Origin: Phyllobacterium sophorae
GTDB taxonomy: Bacteria > Pseudomonadota > Alphaproteobacteria > Rhizobiales > Rhizobiaceae
DNA length: 64,000 nt
Direction of reading: 5' to 3'
NCBI RefSeq assembly: GCF_003010965.1
Contig: NZ_PGGM01000001.1
Span: forward strand, 620,001 to 684,000
Shown here in pieces: positions 5,204-18,361 of this stretch (within the stretch, counting starts at the first letter, position 1; every line of letters begins with the position of its first letter). Position numbers and translations under genes: made by a program. The notes beneath the pieces are model-generated. The model did no database searches. It was not told the DNA's origin and saw nothing but the letters and a program-made list of their open reading frames with translations.

Positions 5204-5313
5204 CCTTGCGGGACTGCCGTGTCGCGCAGCTATCGAATCTATGCACATCCTCTATTGGGAATCTTCCCGACCATTCGCCATATTAAGGCAAGACCAACAA
5301 TGGAGTTGTGGCA

Positions 5314-5757
5314 ATGAAGTACGCAAAGACTGACGAAGCGGTCGGCAAGCTTACGTCCGTGCAGTATCGCGTGACCCAGGAAAACGGCACCGAACGGCCG
5401 TTCACCGGCGAGTATCACGACAACAAGGAGCCGGGGATTTATGTCGACGTCGTTTCTGGAGAACCACTGTTCGCCTCAGCCGACAAGTTCGATTCCGGCT
5501 GTGGCTGGCCGAGCTTCACCAGGCCGATCGTACCGGCGAATGTCAACGAACTGCGGGACGACACGCATGGCATGACCCGCACGGAGGTACGCTCGGTGTA
5601 TGGTGACAGTCACCTCGGCCATGTGTTTCCCGACGGCCCGCAAGATCAGGGCGGGCTACGCTACTGCATCAATTCCGCTTCACTTCGTTTCATTCCGCGC
5701 GACGAAATGGAGGCTGAGGGCTATGGTGCGTATCTCAATCAGGTGGAGGATATTTAA
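5314..5757 (+). CDS. msrB: Peptide-methionine (R)-S-oxide reductase MsrB
   Basis: A 147-residue enzyme reducing the R epimer of methionine sulfoxide in oxidised proteins. Signature pieces are [18 protein letters not shown] and the catalytic [11 protein letters not shown] Cys. The start at ATG 5314 follows a GGAG at 5302-5305. The four Cys that bind structural zinc in many MsrBs are absent: [13 protein letters not shown] replaces the CxxC-bearing version and [11 protein letters not shown] the second, so this is the zinc-free subtype. The stop codon abuts the msrA start, so the pair is translationally coupled. A LysR gene sits immediately upstream. Confidence 0.95.
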
Positions 5758-6264
5758 ATGACCGAGAGAGCTGTTTTGGCTGGTGGTTGTTTCTGGGGCA
5801 TGCAGGACTTGATCCGCAAGCTTCCCGGGGTGATTGGCACCCGTGTAGGCTACACTGGCGGCGACATACCGAATGCGACCTACCGCAATCACGGTACCCA
5901 CGCCGAGGGAATCGAGATCACCTTTGATCCGGAGATCACGAGCTATCGGCGGATTCTGGAGTATTTCTTCCAGATCCACGATCCCACGACGAAAAACCGG
6001 CAGGGCAATGATATCGGCAGCTCATACCGATCGGCGATCTACTACATCGGCGACGAGCAGAAGCGAATAGCCGAGGAAACCATCGCCGACGTGGACGCTT
6101 CGGGGTTGTGGCCGGGCAAAGCCGTGACCGAGGTCGAGCCGGTGACGGATTTCTGGCAAGCAGAGCCGGAGCACCAGGACTACCTGGCGCGTTACCCAAC
6201 CGGCTATACCTGCCATTTCCCTCGCGCCAACTGGGTGCTGCCCCACCGGAAAGCGGCCGAATAG
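5758..6264 (+). CDS. msrA: Peptide-methionine (S)-S-oxide reductase MsrA (copy 1)
   Basis: A 168-residue enzyme reducing S-methionine sulfoxide. It has the catalytic AGGCFWG motif at residues 8-14, a GYTGG segment and the [10 protein letters not shown] motif that shapes the active site. Only one further Cys (GYTCHF, near the C terminus) is available for resolution, unlike the two-Cys tail of the second MsrA. It starts directly after the msrB stop, giving an msrB-msrA operon that handles both sulfoxide epimers. Compare the copy at 8493-9155, which lacks the catalytic Cys. Confidence 0.95.
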
Positions 6265-6573: not shown

Positions 6574-7527
6574 GTGGACGAATTCCTCGTGAGCGTATCT
6601 GGGTCAGGCTTCGCAAGTATGGAGATCTGGGCGGGTGTGGCTTTGCTCGGCACACTGGGATTTGTCCTCGGTTTCGCCCTCAATTATGGATCGATCTGCA
6701 CAGTTATCGCCACGAGGGAATTGGTTTCGGAGAAGAGACCGGCGCGATTTATTGCGATCGTCGAATGCGCCGTCTGGGCGGCCCTTGTCTATGCCATAGT
6801 CGAAACGTCACCGACGATGCAGCGGGGTTGGTCGTCGCTCGGATATATCGTTCCCGCAGCCATATTGTTCGGAATCGGACTTCATGTGAACGGCGCGTGT
6901 GTGTTTGGGTCCGTTGGACATTTCGGAAATGGCGACTCTGAGTTTGTGTTCACGTTTTTTGGTATCTTTGCGGTGTTCTACTTTGAATCTCTGTTTGGAC
7001 TGCTTCCGGAGCGGTCACCGGCAAGTGCGCCCGTGCCATTTGAGCCGGTCCTTCTCATAACCGCATTGTTGGCAACGCTGGTATTGAGGCTTGGTGTGTC
7101 TTTCAAATCCGAGTCCAACTTCTGGCGGCTGACGGTGTCGATGGTAGCGATCGGAACGACCTTTACGATCCTGGCAATTATTGCACCCGGATTCTCGATC
7201 ACGGCATCATTTGGATCGGTCATTTCGATCCCTCTTGCAGGCCCCATGACTTTAGGCTGCATGTTCGCCGGCAGTCTTGTCTCAGCAAGGTTCAGGAGGC
7301 GTCGATTCGAGTTGAAATGGCCTACAGTTAACACCATAGTTTGGAGAACAGTCGGCGGCACACTTATGGGAATGGGTGCGCTGCTCATTCCAGGTGGTAA
7401 TGATACGCTGCTGCTGATTGGTTTTCCCATGGGGGCATGGCAGGCTGCGCTTGCCTACACGCTGTTCGTTGCAACGCTTGCAGCACTCATTGCCAGATTT
7501 GGTTCGATGGCAAAATCCTGGTCATGA
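6574..7527 (+). CDS. YeeE/YedE (TsuA-like) sulfur-compound transporter
   Basis: A 317-residue polytopic membrane protein of the YeeE/YedE family, with roughly nine hydrophobic segments. The diagnostic Cys-containing turns are present: NYGSICTV near residue 46, GLHVNGACVFGS near 110 and LGCMFAG near 228. In thiosulfate importers such Cys residues line the substrate path, so uptake of thiosulfate or another sulfur (or selenium) species is likely. The start is GTG 6574 with GGAG ten bases upstream. Its position after msrBA fits a sulfur/redox theme, but there is no TusA-like partner in the window. Confidence 0.8.
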   Translation: MDEFLVSVSGSGFASMEIWAGVALLGTLGFVLGFALNYGSICTVIATRELVSEKRPARFIAIVECAVWAALVYAIVETSPTMQRGWSSLGYIVPAAILFGIGLHVNGACVFGSVGHFGNGDSEFVFTFFGIFAVFYFESLFGLLPERSPASAPVPFEPVLLITALLATLVLRLGVSFKSESNFWRLTVSMVAIGTTFTILAIIAPGFSITASFGSVISIPLAGPMTLGCMFAGSLVSARFRRRRFELKWPTVNTIVWRTVGGTLMGMGALLIPGGNDTLLLIGFPMGAWQAALAYTLFVATLAALIARFGSMAKSWS

Positions 7528-7661
7528 TGTTCTCTTGGTCAGGCGATTGGCTATCTCCTGTCCGGCCCGCTCTTTCAAAACGTTCTCATATGGCAGACCT
7601 CAAGGTGGATCAAAGCAAATCCAGCACCGTAGCTATGTGAAAGGAAACAATCAGCATAAAA

Positions 7662-7752
7662 TGGCGGAGAGAGCGGGATTCGAACCCGCGTTACGCTTTT
7701 GACGTAAACACACTTTCCAGGCGTGCGCCTTCAACCACTCGGCCACCTCTCC
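7662..7752 (-). tRNA. tRNA-Ser(GGA)
   Basis: Read on the minus strand, the 5' acceptor GGAGAGG (7752-7746) pairs with TCTCTCC; a D arm, an anticodon loop CTGGAAA (anticodon GGA), a long variable arm typical of class II tRNAs and a GTTCGAATCC T-loop follow. Discriminator G and an encoded CCA (7664-7662) complete it. Length is 91 nt with CCA. It reads Ser codons UCC/UCU. Confidence 0.95.
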
Positions 7753-8130: not shown

Positions 8131-8454
8131 GTGATCCGTTCGCTTTTCAGGCTGCTCGCCTATATTGCCCTCAGTCTGGCGATCATTGCCGCCGTTCTTG
8201 ACGCTGCTCGCTCAGTTGGCGCGTCACATTTGATCATGACATCGCTCCGGGACAGCTGGCAGTCCATATCGGCGTCGTCGCTTGCGCTTGCCGAAACCAG
8301 CGTCAAAACCCATATTTACTCGATTTTGTGGGATCCGTTGATGCTCTGGGTGCTCGAAACGCCGACTTTTATCGTTTTTGCCCTACTCGCCTTTGTGCTC
8401 TATGCCATAGGTTACAGGCGCCAGAACAGGGTGGGGCGCTTCGCAGCCCGTTGA
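8131..8454 (+). CDS. Small two-pass membrane protein, function unknown
   Basis: A 107-residue protein starting at GTG 8131, six bases after GGAG; the frame extends upstream but without coding character. It has two hydrophobic segments, about residues 5-27 ([17 protein letters not shown]) and 77-97 ([18 protein letters not shown]), separated by a soluble loop of about 45 residues, and a basic C-terminus ([12 protein letters not shown]). I do not recognise a named family. The downstream msrA-like gene begins 38 bp later with its own ribosome site, so the two are probably cotranscribed. Confidence 0.65.
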
Positions 8455-8492
8455 AGCACGATGGAACTACTCCTTATCCTGGAGGTATTCCG

Positions 8493-9155
8493 ATGTTCAT
8501 CATAGATATGTTCAACAAGAAAACCAGAATGCCTGATAGGGCGGAAGCTCTTCCAGGCCGCGCGACGGCGATTCCCACCGCTGAAACGCATTTTGTGAAT
8601 GGACGCCCGTTGAACGGTCCGTGGCCGGACGGTCTGCAGACCGCGATGTTCGGCATGGGTCGCTTCTGGGGCGTCGAACGGCTGTTCTGGCAAGTGCCTG
8701 GCGTTTACGTCACCGCCGCAGGTTACGCCGGCGGCATCACGCCGAACCCCACCTACCAGGAAACGTGCACCGGGCTGACCGGCCACAATGAAGTGGTGCG
8801 CGTGGTCTTCGATCCGGACATCATTTCCTATGACGAACTATTGTCGCTGTTCTGGCAAGAGCATGACCCCACACAGGGCATGCGCCAAGGCAATGATATC
8901 GGCACGACCTATCGCTCGGGCATCTACACCTTCACGCCGGAACAGAAGGTTGCTGCCGAAGCAAGCCGAGATGCCTACCAGAAAGCGCTTGCCGCTGCTG
9001 GCCATGGCAAGATCACCACGGAAATTCTGGAAGTGCCGGAATTTTACTACGCGGAGGACTATCATCAGCAATATCTCGCCAAGAATCCCGCCGGTTATTG
9101 TGGCCTGCGGGGCACCGGCATTTCCTGCCCTATTCCACAGGCAAAAGCAGTCTAA
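8493..9155 (+). CDS. msrA: MsrA-family protein (copy 2) with catalytic Cys replaced by Arg
   Basis: A 220-residue protein clearly of the long MsrA type: [37 protein letters not shown] and the two recycling Cys in [13 protein letters not shown] are all present. The motif normally reading GMGCFWG here reads GMGRFWG, and codon 57 (8661-8663) is CGC instead of TGC. Without that nucleophile, normal methionine sulfoxide reduction should not occur. The rest of the fold looks intact, so either the loss is recent, the base call is wrong, or the protein has another role. Start ATG 8493 follows GGAGGT at 8481-8486. An intact msrA lies 2.2 kb upstream. Confidence 0.9.
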
Positions 9156-17044: not shown

Positions 17045-18361
17045 ATGTTGTTGCCCCAGGAAATTATCCGCCGCAAACGCGACGGACAAACGCTGGATGC
17101 GGCGGACATAACCGCCTTTGTCAATGCCATGAGTTCAGGTGCGATCACCGAGGGCCAAGTTGCGGCATTTGCCATGGCGGTGTTCTTCAACGGTATGAAA
17201 CGTGATGAGGCAGTGGCGCTGACGCTCGCCATGCGCGATTCAGGCGATATTCTTGACTGGTCCGATTTGCCTGGGCCCGCCGTCGATAAGCATTCGACCG
17301 GTGGCGTGGGTGACAATGTCTCGCTGATGCTGGCACCGATAGCCGCCGCCTGCGGCGCTTATATTCCGATGATCTCGGGGAGGGGCCTCGGTCACACGGG
17401 CGGAACGCTCGACAAGATGGACGCGATTCCCGGATACCGCAGCCAGCCGGACAATGCGCTGTTCCGCAAGGTGGTGCACGAAGTTGGTTGTGCGATCATA
17501 GGGCAGACAGCCAATCTCGCTCCCGCAGACAAGCGTTTCTATTCAATCCGCGATGTCACCGCGACGGTGGAATCCATCCCGCTGATTACTGCCTCGATTC
17601 TGTCGAAGAAACTTTCGGCCGGACTCAACGCATTGGTGTTGGATGTGAAGTCCGGCAATGGTGCCTTCATGTCCAGAAATCGCGATGCCGTATCCTTGGC
17701 CGAGAGCATTGTGGCGGTGGCTCAAGGGGCGGGTTTGGCGACCACGGCGCTCCTCACGGATATGAATGAACCGCTGGCCCTCGCCGCCGGCAATGCAGTC
17801 GAGGTGAAGAATGCCGTCGATTTTTTGACCGGCGACCGGCGTGATGCCCGTCTCGAAGCGGTCACACTGGCGCTGGTTGCCGAGATGCTGGTCTCAGCCA
17901 AGCTCGCACCAAATCACAAGGTCGCGACGGAAAAGGCACGGGATGCCTTGAGCAGCGGCAAAGCGGCGGAAATCTTCGGGCGTATGGTGTCCGGGCTCGG
18001 CGGTCCGGCAGATTTCGTCTCTCGCGTCAGCCATCATTTGCCCGTTGCCCCCGTGACGCACGAGGTGAGGGCCCCACAGACGGGTCATGTCTCGTCGATA
18101 GATACCCGAGCAATTGGTGTTGCGGTTGTGACGCTGGGTGGCGGCCGGATCCGTCCGCAGGATCCTATTGATCATGCGGTAGGGGTAACGGCTCTTCAGC
18201 CAATTGGCGCCAGGATGGACGAAGGCGAACCGGTCGCTCTTGTGCATGCTCGCAACCACGATGACGCCGCCGCCGCCGTGCGCGTCATCGAATCCGCTTA
18301 TGGCTTTTCGGAACGCAAACCGCGCACTGTCAACCCCGTCTTCCGCCGCATAGGCGCGTGA
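17045..18361 (+). CDS. deoA: Thymidine phosphorylase
   Basis: A 438-residue enzyme catalysing thymidine plus phosphate to thymine and deoxyribose-1-phosphate. Signature VDKHSTGGVGD (residues about 81-91), GRGLGHTGGTLDK and VKSGNGAFM are present. Length matches the family. It is the last gene of the nucleoside operon and is separated by a single base from the convergent upp gene, leaving no room for a terminator. Confidence 0.95.
   Translation: MLLPQEIIRRKRDGQTLDAADITAFVNAMSSGAITEGQVAAFAMAVFFNGMKRDEAVALTLAMRDSGDILDWSDLPGPAVDKHSTGGVGDNVSLMLAPIAAACGAYIPMISGRGLGHTGGTLDKMDAIPGYRSQPDNALFRKVVHEVGCAIIGQTANLAPADKRFYSIRDVTATVESIPLITASILSKKLSAGLNALVLDVKSGNGAFMSRNRDAVSLAESIVAVAQGAGLATTALLTDMNEPLALAAGNAVEVKNAVDFLTGDRRDARLEAVTLALVAEMLVSAKLAPNHKVATEKARDALSSGKAAEIFGRMVSGLGGPADFVSRVSHHLPVAPVTHEVRAPQTGHVSSIDTRAIGVAVVTLGGGRIRPQDPIDHAVGVTALQPIGARMDEGEPVALVHARNHDDAAAAVRVIESAYGFSERKPRTVNPVFRRIGA

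Follow-up and report, generated by a model that had tools for sequence, protein, structure and literature searches.

The genome of Phyllobacterium sophorae contains a complete long-form gene for the methionine sulfoxide reductase MsrA (8493 to 9155, forward strand) in which arginine is encoded at the position of the catalytic cysteine, and the question is whether this arginine reflects a loss of the enzyme, an error in the sequence or a new function. The window, the whole stretch of 64,000 nucleotides that was analysed, lies on contig C11 of a draft assembly of 6.35 Mb in 49 contigs that is 99.3% complete.

The gene encodes 220 amino acids followed by a stop codon, and its product scores 203.4 bits with the Pfam model PF01625 (cut-off 23.7) and 216.6 bits with the NCBIfam msrA model TIGR00401 (cut-off 108.1). 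It is 77 to 88% identical to seven orthologs of the same genus and 87 to 88% identical to the three closest ones, those of the genomes G007, G017 and G019. The start is conserved with these three relatives, as is the ribosome-binding site GGAGG at 8481 to 8485 (forward strand). No frameshift, internal stop or lost start was found and the reading frame is intact; around the gene no promoter scored above the shuffled expectation.

MsrA reduces methionine-S-sulfoxide via a sulfenic acid that recycling cysteines resolve for thioredoxin, and the catalytic cysteine, as described in PMC6316033, is essential for this reduction. Residues 53 to 60 of the P. sophorae protein read FGMGRFWG. Translation thus confirms the earlier note, which had claimed that codon 57 is CGC (8661 to 8663, forward strand) and encodes arginine for the catalytic cysteine. 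The position aligns with Cys-51 of MsrA from Escherichia coli (1ff3), which PMC6316033 describes as the nucleophile attacking the sulfoxide. Tyr88, Glu100 and Tyr140, which are invariant in 98 orthologs, are kept; they are the equivalents of Tyr-82, Glu-94 and Tyr-134 of E. coli, given as sulfoxide-binding residues in PMC6316033. Phe58 and Trp59 are retained as well. Cys203 (codon at 9099 to 9101, forward strand) aligns with the recycling Cys-198 of E. coli. The position of the second recycling cysteine, Cys212 (9126 to 9128, forward strand), is covered by 93 of the 98 orthologs, all of which have cysteine at it; five are cut short before this point. The claim that both recycling cysteines and the remaining active site are intact was therefore correct. 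Altogether, the alignment with the E. coli enzyme (PDB 1ff3, 2gt3) extends over residues 6 to 215 with about 281 bits. The two proteins have in common the GxGxFWG motif, the sulfoxide-binding tyrosines and glutamate and the C-terminal recycling cysteines; they differ in Arg57 in place of Cys-51 and in the second recycling cysteine, which in P. sophorae lies one residue beyond the position aligned with Cys-206, as in rhizobial relatives. The protein thus has the family score, the sulfoxide-binding residues and the recycling cysteines of an MsrA; what it does not have is the catalytic cysteine (or selenocysteine).

The alignment to MsrA orthologs that had been proposed as a check shows how exceptional this is. 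Residue 57 is cysteine in all 98 distinct long-form orthologs, drawn from rhizobia, other Alphaproteobacteria, cyanobacteria and others, and arginine in P. sophorae alone. G007, G017 and G019 carry the gene at the same locus, yet all three have Cys57. These 98 remained from 114 matching loci, of which 112 have cysteine and two arginine, the latter both being the gene at 8493 to 9155 itself; 99 loci including that of the window were kept. The others were set aside, four as duplicates, ten because they are short or distant forms that fell below the 1e-60 cut, and one for its ambiguous bases; apart from the window's own, these loci have cysteine. One genome per species entered the comparisons.

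Motif searches gave the same picture. Within the genus the motif was present in 8 of 20 genomes searched, with TGY in seven and CGC in P. sophorae only. At the level of the family the motif matched in 165 of 394 genomes, and among the matches listed all have TGY except the window. A search of 397 genomes of the order for a CGN or AGN codon in the motif hit the window alone, 397 being the number of genomes searched and not of those bearing the motif. For the class, 385 genomes were searched with a pattern that detects only codons not starting with T in an otherwise intact motif. It hit the window and one place in G836; the latter lies in a frame of 36 residues and is a chance match rather than a second loss of the cysteine. 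Six matches of the arginine motif on viral contigs were also discarded, none being an MsrA. A plasmid collection, searched for a record from the same species, gave five matching records, all in the tRNA only, and in one of them the region is without annotation. As far as titles and the openings of abstracts go, a natural MsrA lacking the catalytic cysteine was not found among the literature matches listed, which is weak evidence of absence, and the parts of PMC8945050 and PMC4333827 that were available hold nothing on a natural replacement of this residue. Mesorhizobium huakuii, like P. sophorae a rhizobial species with a multi-copy Msr set, has GCFW instead of GRFW in MsrA1 and MsrA2, and PMC13272141 reports this motif as conserved in its MsrA alignment.

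What, then, has happened to the gene? We consider it somewhat better than an even bet that this is an ordinary long-form msrA, recently inactivated by one T-to-C change and tolerated through redundancy. According to this model, a single transition would have replaced the catalytic cysteine with arginine a short time ago. Without a thiol nucleophile the sulfenic-acid intermediate could not form, and the recycling cysteines would be left with nothing to recycle; the side chain of Arg57 probably fills the pocket partly or wholly. Because the thiol nucleophile is absent, the protein should, from the established chemistry of MsrA, be devoid of methionine-S-sulfoxide reductase activity. That the base is real and that the events took this order we infer as well. 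The loss would be tolerable, given three other MsrA genes with an intact cysteine: the genome has three further PF01625 genes, all encoding it. One of them is the short-form MsrA of 168 amino acids at 5758 to 6264 (forward strand; PF01625), which ends 2.2 kb before the start of the long-form gene, just as the earlier note had placed an ordinary MsrA. However, there are four MsrA genes in G007 and in G019 as well, and both kept the cysteine. Redundancy therefore permits the loss but neither explains nor predicts it.

The substitution pattern bears on how long ago such a loss could have occurred. Compared with the seven orthologs of the genus, the P. sophorae protein has nine residues of its own; such private residues number 1, 2 and 1 in the three nearest relatives and 5, 1, 4 and 5 in the remaining four. 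The order is reversed in the controls, six genes present in all eight taxa, with 6 private residues in P. sophorae against 14, 9 and 8 in the three nearest relatives. Genes for which taxa were missing (LysE and the one at 17045) were omitted from these controls, and the gene directly upstream of msrA does not enter their totals. The excess in MsrA, which was examined after the fact, is significant against these three (Fisher, 0.0008; 0.0019 without codon 57) but not at 0.05 against G007 alone (0.051). The excess is weaker in a codon branch model, where omega is 0.115 on the P. sophorae branch versus 0.057 in the background (p = 0.055), and 0.108 with codon 57 removed (p = 0.09); omega on this branch is not raised in any of the six control genes, and in perm1 it is lower (p = 0.03). 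An omega of 1.0 on the branch is rejected, with a difference of 21 in twice the log-likelihood. The low omega together with this rejection and the intact frame rules out a decaying pseudogene. A model with a neutral segment at the end of the branch peaks at the last 6%, with a 95% limit of about 19%; a segment of zero is not rejected once codon 57 is removed. Judged from these sequence comparisons, a loss of function, if there was any, would be recent and perhaps preceded by a mild relaxation.

Second in rank comes the possibility that the C at 8661 is an error of consensus sequencing or assembly and that the organism has an ordinary MsrA. We rate this as clearly less probable than a real loss, but as a possibility to be taken seriously. 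The difference is a single base in a draft assembly. Furthermore, the eight other private residues occur in orthologs or sit at varying sites: six are present in further orthologs, although Gln122 only in 2 of 98 (95 have glutamate), and of the two new residues Val153 occupies a site that varies and Asn41 one where 83 of 98 have lysine. Arg57 thus stands alone. On the other hand, the assembly looks accurate around the gene. The six private residues in the controls, out of 1930 aligned columns, are the fewest of the eight genomes, the gene immediately upstream has none in 96 aligned columns, and among 57 ORFs of G007 matched within the window there are no frameshifts. In the reverse comparison one frameshift-like pair was seen, and it is located in G007. 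In-frame stops were counted in 11 of 57 ORFs in one direction and in 12 of 59 in the other; these ORFs are taken as spurious overlapping ones and were left out of the argument on assembly quality. In addition, the excess of replacements in msrA is independent of codon 57.

The earlier note had favoured a neofunctionalised sulfoxide-binding protein, a pseudoenzyme that keeps the pocket and binds proteins with methionine sulfoxide without reducing them. We regard this as unlikely. It would fit the retention of Tyr88, Glu100, Tyr140, Phe58 and Trp59 and the low dN/dS, and the mild excess of replacements would permit it. There is also a precedent for binding without the thiol: according to PMC6210582, the C51S variant of MsrA from Neisseria meningitidis (PDB 3bqf) was seen in complex with a methionine-S-sulfoxide compound. 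In that variant the nucleophile is likewise replaced, but deliberately and by serine, whereas the arginine of P. sophorae is natural. Moreover, arginine is far larger than serine and probably fills the pocket beside Glu100. A low dN/dS is expected after any recent change and is no sign of a retained function. A selected new function should leave the change preserved across lineages with the rest of the protein constrained, but among the genomes searched Arg57 occurs in one only and is not shared by several species. Neither a linked change in the five pocket residues nor a new gene context is seen: the gene lies between the gene for a small protein and a gene set for a BMP-type ABC transporter, as in G007, G017 and G019. 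Thus, from the choice of functional change, recent loss or error offered in the earlier note, loss and error stand, with cysteine in the closest relatives and a gene under constraint, and functional change is left with evidence that permits it only.

It is tempting to speculate that Arg57 pairs with Glu100 and thereby locks the sulfoxide site, which would leave a selected non-catalytic binder or a thioredoxin-linked disulfide switch made of the two recycling cysteines only, but we think this even more doubtful than the sulfoxide-binding pseudoenzyme. That another thiol, such as Cys92 or the recycling Cys203, keeps the reduction going is highly improbable despite the presence of Cys92, Cys203 and Cys212: in the E. 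coli and bovine enzymes the cysteine of GCFWG is the nucleophile and the C-terminal cysteines recycle (PMC6316033), and Cys92 is replaced by threonine or valine in 4 of 98 orthologs and is therefore not essential in the family. In summary of the ranking, a recent loss in a redundant gene is the likeliest explanation, an erroneous base comes next, and neofunctionalisation is possible but unsupported.

If the arginine is real, the gene encodes a catalytically dead member of a multi-copy set of repair enzymes, caught before its sequence decays. Should selection have kept the arginine, the methionine sulfoxide pocket would have become the basis of a natural pseudoenzyme. The gene also calls for caution in annotation: its product exceeds the TIGR00401 cut-off by 108 bits, so automatic annotation would present it as an active reductase.

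The small protein encoded immediately upstream (8131 to 8454, forward strand; 107 amino acids, GTG start) lies beside msrA in all seven relatives fetched, with identities of 65 to 93%, and has no match in Pfam or NCBIfam. Further to the left, the short-form MsrA belongs to a cluster that adjoins a LysR gene and includes an MsrB with a SelR domain (5308 to 5757, forward strand; Pfam) and a membrane protein of the YeeE/YedE type (Sulf_transp; 6574 to 7527, forward strand; Pfam and NCBIfam). The genome has a second cluster of MsrB, MsrA and Sulf_transp genes on contig C33 (stretch L129, 8356 to 10577), whose products are 92% (MsrB), 90% (MsrA) and 77% (membrane protein) identical to those of the window; an EamA-type gene lies beside this copy.

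A tRNA-Ser (GGA) gene at 7662 to 7752 (reverse strand) marks the start of synteny with the G007 chromosome. Synteny breaks at its 3' end (7531 to 7660 of the window), and rightwards the window follows contig C1 of G007. Leftwards, some 16 to 17 kb (about 610 to 627.5 kb of C11, including the genes for LysR, MsrB, MsrA and YeeE/YedE) mostly follow a stretch of contig C2 of G007, and the DNA beside the tRNA-Ser gene in G007 matches contigs C3 and C33 of P. sophorae. Of the left flank, stretch L155 went into the search and L156 was left out. The left stretch seems to have been inserted at, or translocated to, a tRNA hot spot, with a misjoined contig as the alternative.
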